Source of the DNA: Saccharomonospora cyanea NA-134
GTDB lineage: Bacteria; Actinomycetota; Actinomycetes; Mycobacteriales; Pseudonocardiaceae
NCBI RefSeq assembly: GCF_000244975.1
Contig: NZ_CM001440.1
Coordinates: 4,634,325-4,698,324 of the forward strand
DNA: 64,000 nucleotides
Reading direction: 5' to 3'
How positions within the stretch are numbered: the stretch's first letter is position 1; each line of letters begins with the position of its first letter. Below the pieces are notes generated by a model. It had not been told where the DNA came from, made no database searches, and was given only the letters and a program-made list of their open reading frames with translations. Made by a program: the position numbers and the translations under genes. Of this stretch, positions 12,683 to 55,563 are shown one piece after another.

Positions 12683-14296
12683 TCAGAGGCCGAGTTTTCC
12701 CGGGTTGAGGACTCCCTTCGGGTCGGCGGCTTGTTTGGCCGCCGCCAGCACCGACACGCCCACGTCGCCGATCTCGGCACGCAGGTAGGGCGCGTGGTCC
12801 ACACCGACGGCGTGGTGGTGGGTGATGGTGCCGCGACCTCGTTCGCTGATCGCCTCACTCGCCGCCCGCTTGGCGCGTTCCCACTGGCCGAACGGGTCGT
12901 GCGGGTCGCGTGCGGCGAGCACGGTGAAGTACAGCGAGGCACCGGTCTCGTAGGCGTGCGAGATGTGGCACATCACCACCGGACGGTCGAGTGCGCCGTG
13001 CAGGGCCACGCGCACCTCGTCGTAGAGCTCCCGCAGCCGGGACCAGTGCGTGGCCGTCTCCAACGTCTCCACGCACACCCCGAGGTCGAGTAGCGCGTCG
13101 CGTTGGCGGGGGCCTGAGAAACGGCCGTGCCGCCACGCCTCTCCCGGCGCGCGCCCGAGCGGGACGGCGCCCGCCGCCTTCAGCAGCCTCAGCGCCCGCG
13201 CCCGCTGCGGGGCGGGCCCGTGCCAGCCGAGAATCAGCAGGCACGGCTCGTGGACCCGGCGCGCGGCGAGATAGCGGCGCAGAGCCTTCGTCGCGAACCC
13301 GCCCTTGAGCGCGAGCGTCACCTCCGTCTCGTCGACATCGGACACCCGCGTGACGTCTGCCAGCAGACCGTTCTGTGCCAGCGCGCGCACGACCTCGGTC
13401 GCGTGCTGCCAGCCCCGGAGGACGAACCCCTCGTAGCGTTCCCGCTCCGGCGACGGCCGCACGCGCACGGTCACCTCGGTGATGACGCCGAGCGTGCCCT
13501 CGCTGCCGACGGCCAGCGCGCGCAGGTTCGGCCCGGCCGCCGAGGCAGGCGCCACGCCGAGTCGCCACGGCCCTGACGGCGTCGCCAGTCGCACGCCCTG
13601 CACCATGTCCTCGAACCGGCCGTATCCCGACGACGCCTGCCCTGCCGAACGCGTCGCGGCGAACCCGCCCAGTGTGGCGCGCTCGAACGACTGCGGCACG
13701 TGGCCCAGCGTGAGGCCGTGCGCGGCGAGCAGGCGCTGCGCGTCGGGGCCCCTGACCCCGGCCTGGAACACGGCCAGCCGAGAGGTGCGGTCGACGGAGA
13801 CGAGCCGGTCGAGCCGTTCGAGGTCCAGCGCGATGACGGCGGCCTTGTCGCCCCGCAACGCGGCGACCCCGCCCACGACGGACGTGCCACCGCCGAACGG
13901 CACCACTCCGACGTCGTGGGCCACGCACGCGTCCACCACCCGCTGCACCTCGTCCGGGTCGCCGGGCACCACCACGGCGTCCGGCACGGCGAGCCCGCCC
14001 GGGTAGCGGCGGCGCAGGAGGTCGAGGTAGGACATCCCACCCGCGCGGCCGAGTCGCTCGCTCTCTCCGTCCAGCACGTGCCCGGCACCGACCGCATCGA
14101 CGAGAGCGGCGCGGGCCGCGGCGGGCAGCCGGGAAGGCGGCACGACGAAGGCCGAGGCGGGTGCGGCGGGCGCGGCGGGCGAAAGAGGTCCGATGCGGCG
14201 GGTGAGCCAGCGCACCGCATGAGGTGGTAACGCGGCGGCTCCGCCCGCTTCCGGAGTCCAGGCGGAGCGGAGTCGATGGTCGGCGGTGTCGTTCAC
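12683..14296 (-). CDS. FAD-binding oxidase, alkyl-DHAP synthase-like
   Basis: A 537-residue flavoprotein of the VAO/PCMH superfamily. The FAD-binding PP-loop is VVPFGGGTSVVGG, with PDAVVVPGDPDEVQRVV before it and GSEGTLGVITEVTVRV after it. The C-terminus has the TITHHHAVGVDHAPYL histidine cluster seen in alkyldihydroxyacetonephosphate synthases, and ends with the usual DPKGVLNPGKL. It is therefore closer to AGPS than to glycolate or lactate oxidases. The divergent neighbour is glpD, which works on glycerol 3-phosphate/DHAP. That supports a role in glycerol-lipid chemistry, though the substrate is not proven. The GTG start has no ribosome site, so the mRNA may be leaderless. Confidence 0.88.
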   Translation of the reverse strand: MNDTADHRLRSAWTPEAGGAAALPPHAVRWLTRRIGPLSPAAPAAPASAFVVPPSRLPAAARAALVDAVGAGHVLDGESERLGRAGGMSYLDLLRRRYPGGLAVPDAVVVPGDPDEVQRVVDACVAHDVGVVPFGGGTSVVGGVAALRGDKAAVIALDLERLDRLVSVDRTSRLAVFQAGVRGPDAQRLLAAHGLTLGHVPQSFERATLGGFAATRSAGQASSGYGRFEDMVQGVRLATPSGPWRLGVAPASAAGPNLRALAVGSEGTLGVITEVTVRVRPSPERERYEGFVLRGWQHATEVVRALAQNGLLADVTRVSDVDETEVTLALKGGFATKALRRYLAARRVHEPCLLILGWHGPAPQRARALRLLKAAGAVPLGRAPGEAWRHGRFSGPRQRDALLDLGVCVETLETATHWSRLRELYDEVRVALHGALDRPVVMCHISHAYETGASLYFTVLAARDPHDPFGQWERAKRAASEAISERGRGTITHHHAVGVDHAPYLRAEIGDVGVSVLAAAKQAADPKGVLNPGKLGL

Positions 14297-16546: not shown

Positions 16547-17695
16547 GTGCCCGAGGGCGTCCTGGTCACCCGGCGCGCGGCGACGACCGTGCGCACCGTC
16601 GTGGCGCGCGAGCTGCGCACCCACCTGCGTAACGGGTACTTCGTCGTCAGCACGGTGCTCGTCCTCGCCGTGCTGGTGGGATACCTGCTGTTGCACGCGT
16701 CGGTGTTCACGCGGTTGGCGAGCACCACCGTGGGTTTGGTCGGGCAGGCCACCGCCATCGCGGAACCGTTGCGGCAGGCGGCGGACGACACGGGCGAGGA
16801 CCTCGCCGTCGTTCCGTACCACGACGCCGCACAGGCGCGCGCCGACGTGGTGCGCGGTGAGCTCGACGTCCTGGTCTCGGGCAGCGCGGCGAACCTCCGT
16901 GCCCTCTCCGGGTCCGAACTGGACGATTCGGTTCGAGCCCTGCTCACCGGAGTCGCCCAGGACGAGGTGCTGGACGCCAAGCTCGTGGAGGCCGGGCTCG
17001 ATCCCGTCGACGTGCACACCGACGTGGCGGCGGCCCGCGTCACCGTGCAGACCGCGGAACCGCCTGCCGTGGCGCGCGACGAGCGTCTCGGCACGGCTCT
17101 GGTCGTCGTGCTCCTGCTCGTGCTCGGCATCGCCGGGAGCTCGGGCGTGGTGGCACGCAGCCTCACCGAGGACGGCACTCGCATCCCTGACGCCTCGGCC
17201 TCGGAGTGTCCCCGGCGCATCGTGCTCGGCAAGGTCGTCGGCGTCGGCCTCGTCGGCGGGGTCCAAGTGCTGGTCCTCGGGGCCGCGACTCTCGCGGTCA
17301 CCGCCGCCACAGGAGCACTGTCCACCGTGGCACCCGCGACGAGTGCGCTGCTGTGGGGGCTGGTGTGGTTCGTACTCGGCTACGCGCTGTACTGGCCGGT
17401 GTTCGTGGCGGCCGCGGCCACGAGCGGCCCGGTGCGGTCGGTCGTGCTGCCCACCACCGCCGTGGTGGTGACCGGTCTCGGGGCCGTCATGCTCGCGCTC
17501 CCGGACCCCGAGAGCACGACCGCGCTCACCGTGTCGTTCGTTCCGCCGCTGTCACCGTTCGTGGTGCCGAGTCACCTCACGACCGGTACCGCCGGAGCGT
17601 TCGAAGTGGTGACGGCGCTGCTGCTGACCGTGGCGGCGACCATCGTCCTGACCTGGCTGGCCCGCGCTCATGTCCGAACGCCCGCCAAAGCCTGA
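16547..17695 (+). CDS. ABC-2 type transporter permease (NatB-like), no ATPase beside it
   Basis: A 382-residue membrane protein. One transmembrane helix near the N-terminus is followed by a large extracytoplasmic domain of about 140 residues, then five or six helices in the C-terminal half. This is the layout of NatB/YhaP-type ABC-2 permeases. The GTG start has GAAGGGGGTG directly upstream. A longer frame from an ATG 12 codons earlier is possible. No NBD-encoding gene is adjacent on either side. The ATPase must be encoded elsewhere, or the protein works without one. Confidence 0.85.
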   Translation: MPEGVLVTRRAATTVRTVVARELRTHLRNGYFVVSTVLVLAVLVGYLLLHASVFTRLASTTVGLVGQATAIAEPLRQAADDTGEDLAVVPYHDAAQARADVVRGELDVLVSGSAANLRALSGSELDDSVRALLTGVAQDEVLDAKLVEAGLDPVDVHTDVAAARVTVQTAEPPAVARDERLGTALVVVLLLVLGIAGSSGVVARSLTEDGTRIPDASASECPRRIVLGKVVGVGLVGGVQVLVLGAATLAVTAATGALSTVAPATSALLWGLVWFVLGYALYWPVFVAAAATSGPVRSVVLPTTAVVVTGLGAVMLALPDPESTTALTVSFVPPLSPFVVPSHLTTGTAGAFEVVTALLLTVAATIVLTWLARAHVRTPAKA

Positions 17696-23558: not shown

Positions 23559-23639
23559 CGCGCCTCTCCCTCCCGCTGCCGGACCCCGAGGGAGTACCCG
23601 GACATCGTGTCCGCAGCCCACGACACAACCCGAACACGA

Positions 23640-37710: not shown

Positions 37711-37800
37711 CCTGCGGACACGAGACGGTGTGTGCCGTGTCCGCAGGTTACGCACGCGTGTCCGCACTTCCTGTACGCGTGTTCGCACCTGGTGTACGTC
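37711..37800. repeat. Array A: hairpin plus 21-bp tandem repeats
   Basis: A 12-bp perfect inverted repeat (CCTGCGGACACG / CGTGTCCGCAGG, 13-nt loop) leads into three units that start at 37738, 37759 and 37780 (exact 21-bp period). The unit is TGTCCGCA-N6-GNACGCR. The array fills the space between the convergent metallohydrolase and MFS genes and reaches the MFS stop codon. The hairpin can act as a terminator. The same unit occurs at 48567 and 53693-53763. Confidence 0.85.
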
Positions 37801-44974: not shown

Positions 44975-46351
44975 ATGCTGCTGCCCACCACGGAATTCGC
45001 TCTGCTCCGCCGGCTCGCCACCGAACAGGTGTCCGGCCGTGCGCCGTCGCTCGTGGCCGCCGTGGTCCGCGACGGCGAGCTCGTCTGGTCGGCCGCGCGC
45101 GGCGAGGTGGACTCGGCCGCTCCGGACAACCTCACGCTGTACCGGATCGGCTCGATCACCAAGTCGCTCGTCGCCGCCGTCGTCATGCGGCTGCGAGACG
45201 AGGGCAGGCTGCACCTGAACGACCCGCTGGAGGCGCACGTGCCCGGCACGAGTTTCGGCTCGGTGACCGTGGCACAACTGCTCTCCCACGCCAGCGGGCT
45301 CACGTCCGAGTCGCCGGGCGCCTGGTGGGAGCGCACGCCGGGCGGTAGCTGGACCGAGCTGAACGCGAGCCTCGGGCCCGCCGAGGTCAAGCACCGCGCC
45401 GGTCGCCGGTTCCACTACTCCAACGTGGGCTACGGGGTTCTCGGCGAACTGGTGGCCCGGCTTCGGGGCGGTTCGTGGCTCGAAGCGGTCCACGACGAGG
45501 TCCTCCGGCCACTGGAGATGTCCCACACCACCGACCGTCCGAGCGGCAGACACGCGAAGGGTTACGCCGTGCACCCGTTCGCGGACGTCGTCCTGCCCGA
45601 GCCCGAGCACGACGCCGGGGCCATGGCCCCGGCCGGGCAACTGTGGTCGTGCGTCGACGACCTCGCGCGCTGGACCGCCTTCGTGGGTGGCGACACCGGC
45701 GAGGTACTGCACCCCGACACGGTCGCCGAGATGCGCGAGGCCGCCGTGATCGACGACAGCGGCGCCTGGAACTCGGGCTACGGGCTCGGCCTCCAGCTCG
45801 TTCACGCGAACGGCAAACGCCTCGCGGGCCACACCGGGTCGATGCCGGGCTTCCTCGCGTGCACGATGATCGACCCGGCCACCCGCACCGGCGCCGTCGC
45901 GTTCGCCAACACCACCTCGGGTGTCGGCATCCTCTCCCTGACCGCCGACCTCATCGCGATGGCCGACGACCACGAACCGCCCCTGCCCGCCGAGTGGCGC
46001 CCCTCCGCGGTCGAGGAATCACTGCTGGAACTCACCGGCCTGTGGCACTGGGGTCCCTCGCCGTACCACCTCAGGGTGCTGCCGAACGGCTGGCTCGACC
46101 TCTCCCCCGCCACCGGCGCGGGCCGCGCGTCCCGCTTCCGGCCACTCGGAGACGACCGCTGGCTCGGCCTCGACGGCTACTACGCGGGCGAGACACTCGC
46201 CGTGACGAGGGACGCCGAGGGCTGCCCGCACCACCTCGACCTGGCCACGTTCGTCTTCACGCGCACGCCGTACGACGCGAGCGCCCCCGTTCCGGGCGGG
46301 GTCGACGAACGCGGGTGGCAACCGGCAGGAGCGGACGAGTCCGAGGGATGA
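44975..46351 (+). CDS. Serine hydrolase, class C beta-lactamase family
   Basis: A 458-residue penicillin-binding-protein-fold hydrolase. The SxxK motif is S60-ITK63 in YRIGSITKSLVA, the second motif is YSN (HYSNVGYGVLGEL), and HTGSMPGF gives the third. It has a C-terminal lipocalin-like DUF3471-type extension (about 350-458) with repeated Trp/Leu strands. There is no signal peptide, so unlike true beta-lactamases it is probably a cytoplasmic esterase or peptidase. Confidence 0.9.
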   Translation: MLLPTTEFALLRRLATEQVSGRAPSLVAAVVRDGELVWSAARGEVDSAAPDNLTLYRIGSITKSLVAAVVMRLRDEGRLHLNDPLEAHVPGTSFGSVTVAQLLSHASGLTSESPGAWWERTPGGSWTELNASLGPAEVKHRAGRRFHYSNVGYGVLGELVARLRGGSWLEAVHDEVLRPLEMSHTTDRPSGRHAKGYAVHPFADVVLPEPEHDAGAMAPAGQLWSCVDDLARWTAFVGGDTGEVLHPDTVAEMREAAVIDDSGAWNSGYGLGLQLVHANGKRLAGHTGSMPGFLACTMIDPATRTGAVAFANTTSGVGILSLTADLIAMADDHEPPLPAEWRPSAVEESLLELTGLWHWGPSPYHLRVLPNGWLDLSPATGAGRASRFRPLGDDRWLGLDGYYAGETLAVTRDAEGCPHHLDLATFVFTRTPYDASAPVPGGVDERGWQPAGADESEG

Positions 46352-47530
<1,179 letters not shown>

Positions 47531-47706
47531 TCGACACGTTTACCCGAACGGAAAGTGGGTAACGAGGCGCGTCGAAAACCGATATTCGGGCCGTATCGAG
47601 CACGATCGAAAACGGATGTACTCGGGACCCGGCGCGCCTCACCCGTCAAGGCGACGCGCCGTTCTACCGTGGGCACCCACACAGGTGATGTCTTTCGGAG
47701 GCGGGG

Positions 47707-48561
47707 ATGCGAACGCTACGAGTGGTCGGGTTGCACGAGGACGGCAAGTCCATCGTGTGCGAAGACCCTGAGCGCCGCGAACGGTTCCTCCTGCCTGCGG
47801 ACGAACGGCTGCGTGCGGCAGCGCGTGGGGACACCGCCCGGCTCGGTCAGCTCGAGATCGAGCAGGAGAACACCCTGCGCCCGCGCGAGATCCAGGCCCG
47901 TATCCGGGCCGGGGAGTCCGTCGAGGAGGTCGCGTCGGCAGCGGGCATGTCGCGGGCCCGGGTCGAGCGGTTCGCCTACCCGGTGCTGGCCGAGCGCGCC
48001 CGCACGGCGGAACTCGCGCAGAACGCACATCCGGCCCGGGAGGACGGCCCCGACGTGCGCACACTCGGCGAGATCGTCGCACACTCGTTCGCCCTGCGCG
48101 GGCAGGACTACACGCAGGCCGAGTGGGACGCGTGGCGCTCGGACGAGGGTAAGTGGATCGTCGGTCTCACGTGGACGGCCGGCCGGTCGGACAACCGCGC
48201 GCGCTGGGCCTTCTCCCCAGGCGCCCACGGCGGCACCGTCACGGCCCTGGACGAGCTGGCCGAGGCTCTGCTCGACCCCGACTCGTACCGCCTGCCCAGG
48301 GCGGTCGGCCAGCGCGGCACGGACTCCACCGTCGCAGGCCTGCCCGCTCGCGAGGGGGCCACGGTGATCGAGGCTCCGATCCCCGTGCCGGTCGAGTCCG
48401 ATCCGGACGAGGACACCTCGGCGCCGTTGCCCGCCAAGCAGGCGAGCAACGGGTTCGTGCCCGAGCAACCCACGTCGGCGCACGGCAACCCCAAGAAGAA
48501 CCATCCCACCGTCCCCGCGTGGGAGGACGTCCTTCTGGGAGTGCGCAGCCAACGAGGCTGA
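47707..48561 (+). CDS. sepH: Septation protein SepH (DUF3071)
   Basis: A 284-residue cytoplasmic division protein that helps FtsZ assembly in actinobacteria. The N-terminal DUF3071 domain with a helix-turn-helix (TLRPREIQARIRAGESVEEVASAAGMSRARVERFAYPV, about 56-93) is unmistakable. The C-terminal third is a disordered acidic/proline linker ending in VPAWEDVLLGVRSQR. It has a GGAGGCGGGG ribosome site. The 176 bp upstream are AT-richer and probably carry its promoter. Confidence 0.95.
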   Translation: MRTLRVVGLHEDGKSIVCEDPERRERFLLPADERLRAAARGDTARLGQLEIEQENTLRPREIQARIRAGESVEEVASAAGMSRARVERFAYPVLAERARTAELAQNAHPAREDGPDVRTLGEIVAHSFALRGQDYTQAEWDAWRSDEGKWIVGLTWTAGRSDNRARWAFSPGAHGGTVTALDELAEALLDPDSYRLPRAVGQRGTDSTVAGLPAREGATVIEAPIPVPVESDPDEDTSAPLPAKQASNGFVPEQPTSAHGNPKKNHPTVPAWEDVLLGVRSQRG

Positions 48562-48564
48562 CAC

Positions 48565-48600
48565 CGTGTCCGCACTTCCCGTACGCAACCTGCGGACACG
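48565..48600. repeat. Array B: single 21-bp unit with inverted copy
   Basis: One unit TGTCCGCA-CTTCCC-GTACGCA, immediately followed by the inverse TGCGGACACG. The 10-bp arms CGTGTCCGCA / TGCGGACACG form a hairpin with a 16-nt loop. It starts 4 nt after the sepH stop and is followed by a second, larger hairpin. Confidence 0.8.
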
Positions 48601-48606
48601 ACGGAA

Positions 48607-48643
48607 GAGCGGGCCCTCACCTTCGGTAGGTGCGGGCCCGCTC
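48607..48643. terminator. Bidirectional terminator sepH / glycan module
   Basis: Stem GAGCGGGCCC plus CACCT paired with AGGTG plus GGGCCCGCTC, with one T/C mismatch and a TCGGT loop. It lies between the convergent sepH and epimerase genes. Confidence 0.85.
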
Positions 48644-48654
48644 TCCGGTAGGGC

Positions 48655-49830
<1,176 letters not shown>

Positions 49831-49957
49831 TTACTTACGGTGCACCCGATCTCAATCTCCGTCAGGTGCACTTCTTCCACCTATCAGCTTTACCGTGTAC
49901 CACTAGGGCACACAGATCAACCCGCACGGAGGATACGGGCGTTCCGGAGCCACCTGA

Positions 49958-50479
49958 ATGGTGGGTATGCACAATGGAGGGGTGAGCACCGCTACGACGG
50001 CCGCCGAAGAACCTCCCACGGCGGAGGCAGGCCGCCCTCGCCTGCTGGTCCGGTTGTTCCGGGCCGCGACGAGTTCCGCACTCGCCACCGGCATCAGTCA
50101 GGTCACCCTCATCGGTCTGCTCTGGTGGGGGGCCGCACCCGCACTGGCCAGCGCCGTGGCGTTCGTCGCGGGTGCGATTCCCAACTTCTTCCTCGCCCGG
50201 CGCTGGGCGTGGGGCCGTAAGGGCACGCCGCCGGTGAAGGGCGAACTCGTGCCGTACCTCGTGGTGATCGGCCTGGCGGGGCTCGCCTCGGTGGGCCTGA
50301 CCACGCTCGCCGGGTGGTTCACCGAACCTCTCGAGTTGTCCGGTCTCCTTCGCATCGTGGTGCTCGACGCGGTGTTCCTCGGCAGTTACGCGATCGTCTT
50401 CTTCATGAAGTTCGCACTGCTCGACCGGCTCGTTTTCCGCCACGCAACACGTATTCGCGTAGCCAAGTCCCCGTCATGA
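49958..50479 (+). CDS. GtrA family membrane protein
   Basis: A 173-residue protein with four membrane helices. The GtrA domain is recognisable (FRAATSSALATGISQVTLIGLL; VAFVAGAIPNFFLARRWAW). GtrA-type proteins help flip polyprenyl-linked sugars or work beside GT2 enzymes in cell-surface glycosylation. The ATG has GGAG upstream, and shorter starts are possible. The 3' end overlaps the convergent glycosyltransferase gene by 77 nt. Confidence 0.9.
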   Translation: MVGMHNGGVSTATTAAEEPPTAEAGRPRLLVRLFRAATSSALATGISQVTLIGLLWWGAAPALASAVAFVAGAIPNFFLARRWAWGRKGTPPVKGELVPYLVVIGLAGLASVGLTTLAGWFTEPLELSGLLRIVVLDAVFLGSYAIVFFMKFALLDRLVFRHATRIRVAKSPS

Positions 50480-52652
50480 CGCGCGCGTAGTTGGCACCGT
50501 AGGAGACGCTGCGGCCCTTCTTGCTGGCGCCGTTGTTGCGCAGCCGCATGGTCATCGGCACCTCCAGCACCCGCGCACCCCGTGCCATGACGCCGAGCAG
50601 CAGCTCCGACGACTGGTACTGCGGTTCGCGCAGGGTCACCGACGTGGCGAGTTCGGCCTTCATCGCGCGGAAGCCGAACGAGGTGTCGGTGATCTTGCGC
50701 AGGGTCAGCAGCGACGCGAGCCACGAGAACACGCGCACGCCGAGCCAGCGGATGGCGCTGTCGTGCTGGTAACTGCCGAGCCTGCGCGAACCGGTGACGA
50801 AGTCGGCCGTGTCGTCCAGAAGCGGCTTCACGAGCATCGGCATCTCGTTGTTGTCGTACTGCCCGTCGGCGTCGGTGGTGACGATGTAGCGGGCTCCGCA
50901 CTCGGTGGCGAGGTGGTAGCCGAGCCGCAGAGCCGCGCCCTGCCCCCGGTTCCGCTTGGCCACGCACACATACGCACCGGCCTCGTGCGCCACCTCGGCG
51001 GTGTCGTCGGTGGCACCGTCGACCACGACCAGCGTGGACACCGGAAGATCACCGCAGTGCGTGGGCATCTCCCTCAGAACCGCTCCGATGCCCTTGGCCT
51101 CGTTGTAGGCGGCGATCACCACGACCAGCGGTGTCAGCGGGCTGTTGCCGTAGCGCTGCCGGAAGTCGGCCACCGCCTCGGCGTCGACGTCGTCGGGGTA
51201 GTCGTCCATCTTGGGCCTCCGTCCTGTCGCCGCGCCGACCGATTCCGCCCGCGCCCCCAGGATCGCGGCGAGTCCCAGCGCCCCTCCGAGGGGAAGGAGC
51301 ACCAGCGCGGGGAGTTGGTACCGCCAGGAGAACTCGAACGACGCGGCTCCCAGCAGGATGATCAAACCACTGCCCGTGGCGAGGAACGCGGCCGACCTCA
51401 GCCCCGAGCGACGGGCGCGGCCGACACCGGCCGCACCGAACAGTCCGAGCAGCGCGAACACGGCGAGCAGCGGCCCCCACGTGTAGCCGCCGCCGAGCTG
51501 GTAACCGCGCAGGAACGACGCGAGGTCGGTGTTCGCCCTCGGCAGCACCCCGTCGTAGGCGTACGTCGTCGCGTTGTAGGCCTCGAGCGTGGAGTCGCCG
51601 ATGTTGTAGTACGGGTACGTGAGCTGGAAGTGCCAGCGCTCCACCGGCACGTCGTTGTGGTGCGTGCGCTTGATCGGGTCGAAGTTCTTCGCGAAGTCCC
51701 TCAGGATCGACCCGACGAAGTCGACCGGCTGGTTCAGCACCACTTCCTTGGCGAACTGGTTGGCCAGCTCCTCCTTGGTCCGCTCGTCGGGCAGTCCCCC
51801 CGGCGGCCAGTTCGGGTTCCCGTACACGAAGTGCGTGTAGTAGTCGATCCCCTGCCGCTCGGCCACCGGTTCGTCGGGGCAGAACAGTTGCAGCCCGGCG
51901 TCGTCGGGGGGCAGTTCGGAACAGTCCGCGATGCTGGCCGTGCGCCCGTAGAGCACGTTGCCGGTGGCCCCGGTCAGTCCCCAGTAACCTGCCTGTGAGT
52001 AGAAGTAGGCCGAGTACGGCAACAGCACCGCCACGACGCCGAGCGCACCGGCCGCGCCCCGGACGCCGATTCGCCTCCACCCCGCCTTGCTGCGCCAGGC
52101 CCCACCGGCCAGCACGAGGTAGACCGCCATCGGCACCACGAGCGTGAACCCGATGGTCCGCGTGACGACAGCGAACCCGATGAGGACCCCCGCGAGACCG
52201 GCCCGCCACCAGGTCGGCTCACCACGGCCGAGCAGCGCCCACAACGCGCCGACCACGAGTGCCTGGAACCAGACCTCCGACATGACGAGCGCTTCGATCT
52301 GGAGCTGGTAGGCGTCCAGCAGCACCGGCGCCGCCACGAGCGCGCCGATCCACCGCCGCGACGTGTACCGCAGCGTCAGCGCGTACAGCGACACGGCGAG
52401 CAACACGCCCACCACGTGCTGTACCGCCTGGACGAACGCCAGCCCACCGAAGGCGAACAGCACCTTCAGCACCACCGTGTAACCCAACGGGTTCAGGTCG
52501 GTGGGCCGCAGCGCGTCGAGGTTGTCCAGGTACCGGAAGCTGTCGATGTAGAGCAGCGCGGGCTCGTACGCCAGCCACACCAGCACACGGAGTGTGACAC
52601 CACCGGCGAGCAGGACGAACAGCAACCAGTGGCGGCGGAGGAAGCCGATCAC
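50403..52652 (-). CDS. Fusion of GT-C membrane glycosyltransferase and GT2 (DPM1-like) glycosyltransferase
   Basis: A 749-residue protein. Residues 1-475 are a multi-helix GT-C/ArnT-like transferase with a large external loop (CSELPPDDAGLQLFCPDE region) and YIDSFRYLDNLD near the first helix. Residues 482-749 are a cytosolic GT2 domain: VVIAAYNEAKGIGAVLREM, VVVDGATDDT, RNRGQGAALRLGY, TTDADGQYD and SFGFRAMK. The GTG start abuts the stop of the upstream epimerase gene. A strong internal ribosome site (GGAGG, 6 nt before ATG at 51209) could also give the GT2 domain alone. Confidence 0.9.
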   Translation of the reverse strand: MIGFLRRHWLLFVLLAGGVTLRVLVWLAYEPALLYIDSFRYLDNLDALRPTDLNPLGYTVVLKVLFAFGGLAFVQAVQHVVGVLLAVSLYALTLRYTSRRWIGALVAAPVLLDAYQLQIEALVMSEVWFQALVVGALWALLGRGEPTWWRAGLAGVLIGFAVVTRTIGFTLVVPMAVYLVLAGGAWRSKAGWRRIGVRGAAGALGVVAVLLPYSAYFYSQAGYWGLTGATGNVLYGRTASIADCSELPPDDAGLQLFCPDEPVAERQGIDYYTHFVYGNPNWPPGGLPDERTKEELANQFAKEVVLNQPVDFVGSILRDFAKNFDPIKRTHHNDVPVERWHFQLTYPYYNIGDSTLEAYNATTYAYDGVLPRANTDLASFLRGYQLGGGYTWGPLLAVFALLGLFGAAGVGRARRSGLRSAAFLATGSGLIILLGAASFEFSWRYQLPALVLLPLGGALGLAAILGARAESVGAATGRRPKMDDYPDDVDAEAVADFRQRYGNSPLTPLVVVIAAYNEAKGIGAVLREMPTHCGDLPVSTLVVVDGATDDTAEVAHEAGAYVCVAKRNRGQGAALRLGYHLATECGARYIVTTDADGQYDNNEMPMLVKPLLDDTADFVTGSRRLGSYQHDSAIRWLGVRVFSWLASLLTLRKITDTSFGFRAMKAELATSVTLREPQYQSSELLLGVMARGARVLEVPMTMRLRNNGASKKGRSVSYGANYARVMTGTWLREYVLRGGKRAGRAVRTS

Positions 52653-53597
52653 TCAGAACACTTTCTGCCTGTCGTGGTCGAGGAAGTACTGCCAGGTGGC
52701 GGCCAGGCCGTCCCGCAGGCTGTACGCCGGGCGGTATCCGATGGTCTCCGCACTGCGGGAGACGTCCACGACCACCGCGGGCATCTCACCACCCGGCGCG
52801 GGCACGTGCTCCACGGGGATCGGACACCCGGTGACCTCCCTGACCGTGTCGATCAGTTCCAGCACCGACACCGACCGGCCCGCTCCGATGATCGCCCTGC
52901 CGGCGTGCTCCCTGTCCCAGGCGAGTTCGATGCCGCGCACGACGTCGTCGAGGAACACCAGGTCGCGTCGCTGTTCGCCGGTTCCGTAGACCTTCACCCC
53001 GCCGTCCGACAGGGCGGCTCGCATGAGCCGCGGCACGAAACTGTCCTTGTGGCTCATACCGGGGCCGTAGACGTTCGTGAACCGCAGCGCGCACGTGGCC
53101 ATACCGTAGGTGCCCGCGTAACCGGACAGCAGCATCTCGCAGGCCGCCTTGGTGGCCCCGTAAGGGGTGAGCGGCTGCAACGGCATGTCCTCGGTGATGG
53201 TTCTCGTGCCGACGTCGCCGACCACCGCGTTGGTCGAGGCCAGGACGAACCGCCGCACACCGTGCATCCGCGCCAGTTCCAGCAGCTCGTGGGTGATGCC
53301 GACGTTCTCCGCGTACGTCTTCGCGGGCATCTCCTTCGAGCGCAGCACCGAGGTGACGGCCGCGAGGTGGATGATGCCGTCGATGCCGGGCACCACGGCG
53401 CGCTCCCGAACCTCCGGGTCGGCCAGGTCGCCCTGCACCGCGACGACTCCCTCGTCGTGCGGCGTCACGAGTTCCCGGTCCACGATCGTCACCCGTGCGC
53501 CGCGACGCCGGAAGGCGGCGACGACCGCGCGTCCGATGAAGCCGCAACCGCCCGTGACCACGACATGGGGCGAGTCTGTATTCGTGGCGGAAGACAT
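52653..53597 (-). CDS. NAD-dependent sugar epimerase/dehydratase
   Basis: A 314-residue extended SDR of the UDP-glucose 4-epimerase family. It has VVTGGCGFIGRAVVAAFRRRG, the IIHLAAVTSV strand, a catalytic Y-x3-K in PYGATKAACEML, and RFTNVYGPG. It probably supplies the nucleotide sugar for the downstream fusion glycosyltransferase, to which it is directly coupled (stop and start adjacent). Confidence 0.92.
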   Translation of the reverse strand: MSSATNTDSPHVVVTGGCGFIGRAVVAAFRRRGARVTIVDRELVTPHDEGVVAVQGDLADPEVRERAVVPGIDGIIHLAAVTSVLRSKEMPAKTYAENVGITHELLELARMHGVRRFVLASTNAVVGDVGTRTITEDMPLQPLTPYGATKAACEMLLSGYAGTYGMATCALRFTNVYGPGMSHKDSFVPRLMRAALSDGGVKVYGTGEQRRDLVFLDDVVRGIELAWDREHAGRAIIGAGRSVSVLELIDTVREVTGCPIPVEHVPAPGGEMPAVVVDVSRSAETIGYRPAYSLRDGLAATWQYFLDHDRQKVF

Positions 53598-53690
53598 GGG
53601 GTCAAACTACCCGGTGCTCCGATCGGTCCAACCCGTACCCGCGACCTGGTCACGCCGACGAACGGTTGTCGCAGTTCGAGCACCCGACAT

Positions 53691-53800
53691 CGTGTCCGCA
53701 GCTGGTGTACGCATGTCCGCAGGCTGCGCACGCGTGTCCGCAGTCCGTGAACGCCTGTCCGCAACAAGGGCGCGAACCCGGATGCCGAGCTGCGGACACG
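53691..53800. repeat. Array C: four 21-bp units closed by an inverted copy
   Basis: Units TGTCCGCA-N6-GNACGCR start at 53693, 53714, 53735 and 53756 (exact 21-bp period, the last one degenerate). The first 13 bases, CGTGTCCGCAGCT, pair perfectly with AGCTGCGGACACG at 53788-53800, so the array can fold into one long hairpin. It lies between the glycan module and the DUF2537 gene. Read as protein, the units would give Cys-Pro heptads, but no coding signal supports that. Confidence 0.85.
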
Positions 53801-53833
53801 CGTGCGGGAAGTGCGGGCACGGCGTCGGGCGGC

Positions 53834-54505
53834 TCAGGTGAAGGCGATCAGCAGGACCCCGATCCAGGACAGCGCCGTGCCGACGACGGCGCCGAGCACG
53901 ATCCACCGCACCACGGGCACGCGTCGCCCCAGCCACAGCGACGGCGCGAGCCCTCCCGTCACCACGGCCGCGGCGACGACGGCGACCCACCCGGTCGTCT
54001 CCGACGCGAGCGTGGAGGCCAGGGCGAGCATCGCCACGACGACGCACACGGCGACGAACCCCGCGACGGTCAGCCCGGTGGCCCACAGCGTCGGGTCCAC
54101 CACCGTGCCGCCCCGCTCGCGTTCCGGGGCGGCAGGCACCGGGTGCGCGCCGGAACGCGGCGGGGAGACGAGTGTCGTCTCGTCGGTCATGGGATCGCGG
54201 TAACGCACAGGCTCGTCGAGCGCCGCCGCCACCCGGCTCACGAGCTGCCTGCCCCGCCTGGACACGACCTCCCGGCCCGCGCCGCCACCGGTGCGCCGGA
54301 CGGCCGCGCACACGCGGGCCCACTCGTCGAGGGCCTCGGCGAGATCGGCACCGACCACGTCGTCGAGACCGGCGACCTCACCACCCCCTCCGCCTTCGGC
54401 GACCACGGTCGCCTCACTCGTCCCGTCCGCCTCACCCTGTCCACTCCGTACGATGCCGACGATGACGGCGTGGCCGTCACGTACCAGCAGTTCGGCCTCA
54501 TTCAC
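53834..54505 (-). CDS. DUF2537 membrane protein
   Basis: A 223-residue protein. An N-terminal soluble domain (RDGHAVIVGIVR, SRRGRQLVSRVAAALDEPVRYRDP) is followed by a linker and three to four transmembrane helices in the C-terminal 90 residues. This is the DUF2537 architecture of the mycobacterial protein encoded next to sepH (Rv0882 in my memory). The function is unknown. Confidence 0.85.
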   Translation of the reverse strand: MNEAELLVRDGHAVIVGIVRSGQGEADGTSEATVVAEGGGGGEVAGLDDVVGADLAEALDEWARVCAAVRRTGGGAGREVVSRRGRQLVSRVAAALDEPVRYRDPMTDETTLVSPPRSGAHPVPAAPERERGGTVVDPTLWATGLTVAGFVAVCVVVAMLALASTLASETTGWVAVVAAAVVTGGLAPSLWLGRRVPVVRWIVLGAVVGTALSWIGVLLIAFT

Positions 54506-54534
54506 ACCTGCTCACCCGCGTCTCTTCTCGCACC

Positions 54535-55338
54535 TCACCTCGTCAGCTCGTAGAAAGCAACAGCGGCCGCCGTGGCGACGTTGAGCGAGTCCACGCCGGA
54601 CGCCATCGGGATGCGCACGGCGCTGTCGGCGGCGTCGAGAGCCTCCTGTGACAGGCCGTGTCCCTCCGAGCCGAGCAGCAGCGCGATCCGATCGAACCCG
54701 GACCGGCGCACATCACGCAAAGCTATCGCGTCGGAACGTGGAGTGAGCGCGGCGACGTGGAAACCACGCCGCCGCAGTTCTTCGACCGCGTCCGGCCATG
54801 CCGGCACGGAGGTGAACGGCACACGCAGCACGTGCCCCATCGAGACGCGGACGCTCCGCCGGTACAGCGGGTCGGCGCAGCCCGCGCCGAGCAGCACGCC
54901 GTCGACGCCGAGCGCGGCGGCGTTGCGGAACATCGCACCCAGGTTCTCGTGGTCGTTCACGCCCTCCAGCACGGCGAGCACCCTCGCGCCGTCGACCACG
55001 TCGGCGAGCGACGGTGTGGGCGCGCGGTCGGCGACGGCCAGCACGCCCCGGTTGAGGTGGAACCCGACGACGTCGGACATGGTCCGCGCCGAGGTGGCAT
55101 AGGCGGGCACGTCGAAGTCCGCGAGGTCGGCACGGAGTTCGTCGAGTTTGCGAGGCACTCCGAGCACGGCACGCAGTGGGTAGGCCGAACTCAGCAACCG
55201 CCGCACCACCACGACGCCCTCCGCGATCACCAGGCCACGTCCTCCCGGCCGATCGGGTCTGCGGTCGGCGGTCGTGAGGTCGCGGAAGTCGTCCAGTCGG
55301 GGGTCCGCCGCGTCGGCTATCTCGGTCAGCTTGGCCAC
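54535..55338 (-). CDS. TrmH/SpoU family RNA 2'-O-methyltransferase
   Basis: A 267-residue SPOUT methyltransferase. The N-terminal substrate-binding domain is L30e-like. The knotted SAM-binding domain has LEGVNDHENLGAMFRNAAALGVDGVLLG, LLLGSEGHGLS, and IPMASGVDSLNVATAAAVAFYE. It methylates ribose in rRNA or tRNA. Its place beside DUF2537 follows mycobacterial gene order. Confidence 0.94.
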   Translation of the reverse strand: MAKLTEIADAADPRLDDFRDLTTADRRPDRPGGRGLVIAEGVVVVRRLLSSAYPLRAVLGVPRKLDELRADLADFDVPAYATSARTMSDVVGFHLNRGVLAVADRAPTPSLADVVDGARVLAVLEGVNDHENLGAMFRNAAALGVDGVLLGAGCADPLYRRSVRVSMGHVLRVPFTSVPAWPDAVEELRRRGFHVAALTPRSDAIALRDVRRSGFDRIALLLGSEGHGLSQEALDAADSAVRIPMASGVDSLNVATAAAVAFYELTR

Positions 55339-55563
55339 GCCGGGAGTGTCGCACTCCTCCTTCCCCCCAGGAGTCGGTGCTCCGAATGCTGGGTAGCCCG
55401 GTCGTACGAACGGGCCTTTGCGTGCGCTGAGTCATGTCGAGGTGACGGAGTGCACCGGTTTGGCCGCTAGTGGCGGCTTCTCGGGTGTGCCAACGTTGCC
55501 GCCTGGCAAAGGAACGCCAAGGCGTTCGGGTGAGCCGAGGCCGAGCAGGAGAAGGAACATCCC
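55339..55563 (+). promoter_or_regulatory. Structured leader of the glutamate-cysteine-ligase-like gene
   Basis: A 225-bp non-coding region. Its last 90 bases contain several small stems: GCCGC-TAGT-GGCGGC, TTGCC-GCCT-GGCAA and AACGCC-AA-GGCGTT. I could not match this to a known riboswitch class. Confidence 0.35.

Follow-up and report, generated by a model that had tools for sequence, protein, structure and literature searches.

Short extragenic repeats that number in the hundreds and often stand as inverted pairs at gene 3′ ends are known in bacteria as repetitive extragenic palindromic (REP) sequences, bacterial interspersed mosaic elements (BIMEs), and REPINs. The DNA uptake sequences of Neisseria and Haemophilus likewise combine a short core with lineage dialects and inverted pairs behind genes, and in eukaryotes the Sal-box/TTF-I terminators of ribosomal DNA are short, oriented, tandem roadblock sites behind transcribed regions. 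As far as we know, the way in which transcripts end in high-GC actinobacteria is incompletely understood. Here, we describe a 21-bp repeat with the core TGTCCGCA in a 64,000-nucleotide stretch of Saccharomonospora cyanea NA-134 (contig NZ_CM001440.1, positions 4,634,325 to 4,698,324), hereafter the window. A first-pass annotation of the window had pointed to a "hairpin repeat" at both edges of a glycan gene module that separates sepH from the DUF2537 gene. These two border repeats are members of a genome-wide family of arrays at gene 3′ ends. No description of the family was found in the literature searched, and the available part of the NA-134 genome paper speaks of repeats only in the entry "CRISPR repeats 0" (PMC3910552).

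A genome-wide family of 21-bp repeats at gene 3′ ends

The repeats lie at both module edges where they had been annotated. The array at the sepH 3′ end (48567–48598) begins 5 nt past the sepH stop codon and holds a forward core at 48567–48574 and an inverted core (TGCGGACA) at 48591–48598. The array at the DUF2537 3′ end (53693–53819), 14 nt from that gene's stop codon, contains four exact forward cores in 21-bp steps (starts 53693, 53714, 53735, and 53756), an exact inverted core at 53791–53798, and a one-mismatch inverted core at 53812–53819. Allowing two mismatches, the pattern matched 11 times in the window; 100 shuffles averaged 3.75 matches, and all stayed below 11. In the whole genome of the window (G000 in our numbering; 5,408,301 bp, one contig), 245 matches were found with at most one mismatch, compared with four for a reversed control pattern. 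Together, the shuffle, reversed-pattern, and tandem-pair controls exclude a chance origin of the repeats.

The unit is 21 bp long and consists of TGTCCGCA, six variable bases, a G, and a lineage-specific tail. Units stand head to tail, with same-strand neighbors spaced exactly 21 bp apart in 55 of 59 cases in G000, and a mirror-image set often follows. Inverted copies are therefore common, as the term "hairpin repeat" implied, but they are not universal, and the unit itself is a direct repeat. Where a forward unit adjoins an inverted one, the distance between their heptamers equals 17 modulo 21 in 27 of 57 junctions of the genus and in 15 of 18 junctions of sister genera, a register that gives a shared dyad center of TGTYCGC, 10 bases, and GCGRACA. 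In species with the tail ACGCG, the stop-proximal unit is mostly of the type NNNTRNG (69/117) and the second unit most often of the type NNNCNNG (43/91); this order is not shown by the sister-genus genomes G031 and G020 (12 and 14 of 26 for unit one).

Placement in G000 was measured on 860 kb of tiles with our own codon-usage gene caller, which missed gtrA of the window. Within these tiles, 154 of 169 exact cores are intergenic and 15 lie inside genes. Cores occur in 31 of 110 convergent gaps, 32 of 311 same-strand gaps, and 3 of 134 divergent gaps, absolute rates that are inflated because the tiles were chosen around listed repeats. In 60 of 65 same-strand arrays pooled from eight genomes, the start lies at most 35 nt past the upstream stop codon (median 11 nt), compared with 28.7 expected and a maximum of 42 in 2000 uniform placements; these counts include orthologous sites, so the events are not independent. 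The first core of those 60 arrays is in sense orientation in 50 and antisense in 10. In 61 convergent gaps, counting cores no farther than 35 nt from the stop, the neighbor of the left stop is forward in 35 and inverted in 10, and the neighbor of the right stop is inverted in 38 and forward in 13. Same-strand pairs that carry an array also have longer gaps once the array is subtracted (median 87.5 versus 36 in other pairs; at most 30 bp in 9/64 versus 415/878) and look like transcription-unit boundaries. With units defined by heptamer pairs, and in small numbers, placement at 3′ ends recurs in sister genera that use another core dialect: units were found in 6 of 29 convergent, 3 of 85 same-strand, and 0 of 35 divergent gaps of G020 and in 3 of 30, 5 of 63, and 2 of 37, respectively, of G031, and the first unit was in sense in all eight same-strand gaps of these two genomes.

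The 100 exact matches listed for G000 form 75 clusters, which are denser in the first half of the origin-to-terminus distance (11, 19, 23, 8, 7, and 7 clusters in six bins from dnaA). Units are sparse at 2.0–3.0 Mb, opposite dnaA, with five among the 100 matches listed. At 655–663 kb, an identical array-bearing stretch occupies three gaps (L072:9828–10022, 13293–13561, and 16835–16911), probably as a result of local duplication. The window holds two further occurrences: an array in a convergent gap (37713–37798), with one inverted core followed by three forward cores, of which the third has one mismatch, and a lone plus-strand unit (23608–23628; core 23608–23615) in a same-strand gap whose flanking genes are both on the minus strand.

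Distribution, dialects, and inheritance of array sites

Exact TGTCCGCA pairs 21 bp apart number 30 to 324 per genome in 8 of 12 genomes of the genus and zero in the other four, and one to three in 7 of 378 other genomes of the family Pseudonocardiaceae. With the looser heptamer TGTCCGC, pair counts are 114 to 342 in the same eight genomes and 0 to 6 in the other four. In a draw of 120 Pseudonocardiaceae genomes, five of them from the genus, many pairs were also present in G020 (155), G031 (129), G092 (44), and G062 (32, from the count only). Ten of the 11 pairs in G131 belong to a 7-bp simple repeat, and the rest of the draw has at most four pairs, with the reversed control giving at most one per strand. 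From these pair counts, the repeat family is present in at least genera g1, g10, and g21. Across 24 genomes from other families of the order, our first repeat pattern gave 0 to 18 matches, near the control.

Three dialects can be told apart: TGTCCGCA with the tail ACGCG, TGTCCGCA with the tail TAGCCG (G005 and G009, with similar units among those listed for G002), and TGTCCGC with G or C as the usual next base (G020 and G031). G003 has a mixed A and G dialect; this genome also contains a run of successive identical units (G003:C1:418557–418710), a sign of recent local tandem growth.

The conservation of array sites was compared in three anchor regions, selected because G000 has arrays there, with a single heptamer counted as presence, a design less biased than using tiles picked for arrays in the other species too. 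Orthologous gaps with an array in both genomes, in G000 only, in the other only, and in neither numbered 4/1/1/15 for G010, 5/1/1/49 for G001, 5/3/1/51 for G003, 2/2/1/18 for G004, 1/4/1/36 for G005, 2/4/0/37 for G009, and 0/1/0/2 for G007. Array sites are thus for the most part inherited within the ACGCG clade, and the other clade mostly has different ones. In pairwise alignments of array-bearing orthologous gaps, 86 to 96% of bases were kept in the core, 67 to 75% in the six variable positions, and 78 to 84% outside units, figures that are biased for the core because units were picked by it.

A scan of a genome collection for three units returned at least 120 stretches. Among the 80 matches listed, 61 belong to Saccharomonospora or to one Actinomycetes metagenome-assembled genome, and 19 are contigs of unrelated bacteria, in which the parts between cores differ and are mostly near-identical within a contig. 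A scan of viral contigs, run without a control, found two-unit matches in 70 stretches; 69 of these had a single match and the other had two.

The glycan module between sepH and DUF2537

Gene calls and domain assignment located the four-gene module where the first-pass annotation had placed it. Behind sepH (DUF3071; 47707–48561, plus strand) come an NAD-dependent epimerase/dehydratase family enzyme (Pfam Epimerase; 48655–49809, minus), a GtrA/DPMS transmembrane protein (49958–50479, plus), a large protein with a C-terminal Pfam GT2 domain (50403–52652, minus), and a second NAD-dependent epimerase (52653–53597, minus). They are followed by the DUF2537 protein (53834–54505, minus) and a SpoU/TrmH-type RNA methylase (54535–55338, minus). 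The convergent gtrA and glycosyltransferase genes overlap by 77 bp (50403–50479). By eye, an additional short reading frame seems to be present ahead of DUF2537 in several genera, both in loci that carry the module and in loci that lack it (L044, L045, L047, L049–L054, and L056).

Between sepH and the epimerase gene, a GC-rich hairpin (48606–48644) stands separate from the array. Several relatives show, by eye, a hairpin of different sequence in this gap, and in other genera the gaps downstream of sepH (L044, L045, L050, L052, and L054) contain a distinct long-stem hairpin, for example AAGGCCACCTT...AAGGTGGCCTT. These long-stem hairpins are similar between some genera and may represent another repeated family of 3′-end hairpins. 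A search of positions 46000–55500 for known structured RNAs gave a single match, to Pxr, across the sepH–epimerase gap, at 28.7 bits against a cut-off of 80.

In the sepH regions of 19 relatives, the glycosyltransferase protein and the second epimerase lie between sepH and DUF2537 in 12, sepH has DUF2537 as its next marker gene in six (gaps of 0.4–3.3 kb), and DUF2537 was not seen within the stretch examined in one (G032). In the module-bearing G075, the first epimerase is a distant homolog (43%) in the opposite orientation. The position of DUF2537 as next marker behind sepH in those six relatives makes it plausible that an older sepH–DUF2537 block gained the module later.

The first-pass annotation had proposed that the module was inserted by recombination at its border repeats, or else that the repeat marks the borders of gene blocks. 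Among the 13 module-bearing loci, the window's included, arrays flank both borders in two (G000 and G001), an observation in favor of insertion, and a single border in two (G003 and G005); G092 and G075 each show a single lone heptamer, and in seven, including G009 and G031, the TGTCCGC heptamer is absent from both borders. The borders are bare in G009 despite 324 exact tandem pairs elsewhere in its genome and in G031 although it belongs to a repeat-rich sister genus. They are also bare in genera with few or no repeats, and module-bearing relatives include genera with zero or almost zero copies. Conversely, repeats stand behind many unrelated genes that have no module. Most relatives carry the module with unrelated gap sequence, the very outcome that the annotation had taken to speak against its border idea, and across the relatives' sepH regions repeats and module do not come and go together. 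Insertion through recombination between the two border repeats is highly improbable. Since module loci are often bare-bordered, even in the repeat-rich G009, module and repeat are inherited independently, and the module would be an old addition to the block with a history separate from that of the repeats. The idea of a border marker survives in altered form, as the marked border is the 3′ end of a gene, the two arrays following the sepH and DUF2537 stop codons. A spread of repeats over convergent regions, which the annotation had likewise seen as contrary, was found in part, 31 of the 110 convergent gaps read, and not all, carrying a repeat.

Possible roles of the arrays and comparison with known systems

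We tentatively favor the reading, which we rate somewhat below even, that the arrays are putative DNA sites for a protein acting at the ends of transcription units. Each 21-bp unit would be a double-stranded site for a sequence-specific protein, and as 21 bp makes two helical turns, bound copies would all lie on one face of the helix. An array bound behind a gene would then serve as a directional roadblock or insulator, curbing both read-through and the collision of convergent transcripts, and the lineage dialects may reflect co-evolution of the sites and the putative binder. In favor of this reading are the 21-bp spacing, the intergenic position close to stop codons with the core mostly in sense, the forward-to-inverted phase, the resemblance of array-bearing same-strand pairs to transcription-unit boundaries, the lack of covariation between mirrored variable bases, the variants and the conservation of the core, and the recurrence of the placement in sister genera. 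The fuller proposal, that the genus and a few relatives possess a dedicated DNA-binding factor that uses helix-phased post-stop arrays for genome-wide, orientation-dependent roadblock termination or insulation, with sites and binder drifting together, is doubtful. Several observations weigh against a protein-site role. No protein binding the arrays was found, the forward-to-inverted phase lock is seen in no array of the window, and the orientation rule has exceptions, the 10 antisense cases among 60 same-strand arrays. G031 has 8 of 50 units in called genes in addition to the 2 of 37 divergent gaps with units, and the TAGCCG-dialect species share few G000 sites in the three anchor regions (G005 1/5, G009 2/6). 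The separate hairpin adjoining the sepH array means that the array is not the sole possible terminator there, and short-loop hairpins occur in 7 of 27 convergent gaps with arrays versus 16 of 42 without, a difference that is not significant; the idea that convergent gaps hold either a hairpin or an array was accordingly dropped.

Alternatively, the arrays could form a REP/BIME-like selfish family, spread by a lost or unrecognized transposase and kept behind stop codons where it does least harm, with the dialects recording family turnover. This explanation is possible, though we consider it rather less than likely. It would account for the hundreds of dispersed copies, the inverted pairs, the scarcity near promoters, and the patchy distribution (8 of 12 genus genomes plus genera g10, g21, and g50), and the identical-unit run in G003 near 418.6 kb indicates local tandem growth. 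A Y1 transposase (PF01797) was found in 4 of 12 genus genomes (G003, G004, G007, and G009), three of which (G003, G004, and G009) are repeat-rich; however, none was detected in the other five of the eight repeat-rich genomes of the genus (G000, G001, G002, G005, and G010), and the five Y1 loci found, of about 3 kb each, lack tandem units, one of them (L059) having a lone forward and a lone inverted heptamer. We therefore found no present link to IS200/RAYT mobilization, although REP superfamilies without a dedicated transposase exist, such as the CGTC type described in the available part of one source (PMC3733652). Moreover, a single unit does not form a stable stem-loop, as its folding energy lies at most about 1.3 standard deviations below that of column-shuffled units in all seven species, and the tightness to the stop codon exceeds uniform placement. 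It is also conceivable, yet unlikely, that the arrays act at the RNA level, as hairpins in the transcript that either terminate transcription or shield the 3′ ends of mRNAs. The post-stop position, sense orientation, and frequent inverted pairs would suit such a role, and all 31 array-bearing convergent gaps contain a 48-nt fold at or below −15 kcal/mol. With the array masked, a strong fold is left in 9 of the 31, against 58 of 79 array-free gaps, but so little sequence is left after masking that the comparison is confounded. Gaps with arrays fold only modestly below shuffled sequence (mean −26.2 versus −22.8), array-free gaps more so (−29.0 versus −22.7). A CGCA/TGYG pairing class occurs within the unit at 0.35 (35% of 211 G000 units) versus 0.18 when column-shuffled, whereas forward-only arrays persist across species and mirrored variable bases show no covariation (pairing 0.481 versus 0.516 shuffled, and 0.550 versus 0.548). 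A long hairpin from mirrored units was rejected on this ground. Tail pairing between mirrored units is in excess in the Saccharomonospora set (1 of 300 shuffles reached the same level), but lineages with different tails are mixed there and confound the result, and the center pairs less than shuffled. One-mismatch cores are mostly C4T and A8G, and the same variants prevail in inverted units of same-strand arrays (13/20), where wobble in the sense transcript would disallow them. RNA wobble was therefore discarded as their cause, and the pattern fits degenerate protein recognition better than pairing in the transcript.

As phased, oriented sites just past stop codons, the arrays are candidates for a protein-based end-of-gene signal. 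Even if selfish, they would be an extragenic repeat with lineage dialects and no linked transposase found. Compared with REP, BIME, and REPIN elements, high copy number and extragenic position are shared, but the palindromic stem-loop and the RAYT (Y1) association are lacking, the unit here being a phased 21-bp direct repeat and the Y1 transposase undetected in most repeat-rich genomes. The GTAG and CGTC end tags of REPs, as given in the available part of that literature (PMC3733652), do not define the 21-bp repeats. The TAGCCG dialect (G009, G005, and G002) does include GTAG, which also tags a REP superfamily; this is probably a coincidence, because G005 and G002 show no Y1 transposase. The TAACTGA direct repeats of Beggiatoaceae also form many intergenic sets of short direct repeats with a putative binder; in the Guaymas genome, according to the part of the report at hand, most lie just upstream of start codons (PMC4679880), whereas the arrays here lie behind stop codons and have a longer, phased period. 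TGTCCGCA differs at one position from the last eight bases of the DnaA box TTGTCCACA, but the 3.1-kb stretch around dnaA in G000 has five TTGTCCACA and zero TGTCCGCA, so the repeats are not DnaA boxes. Unlike DNA uptake sequences, the 21-bp repeats are rare in genes (15 of 169 cores) and tandem at 21 bp. The Sal-box/TTF-I terminators serve as our working analogy, with the difference that the present arrays are bacterial, occur at hundreds of loci, and have a binder that is putative.

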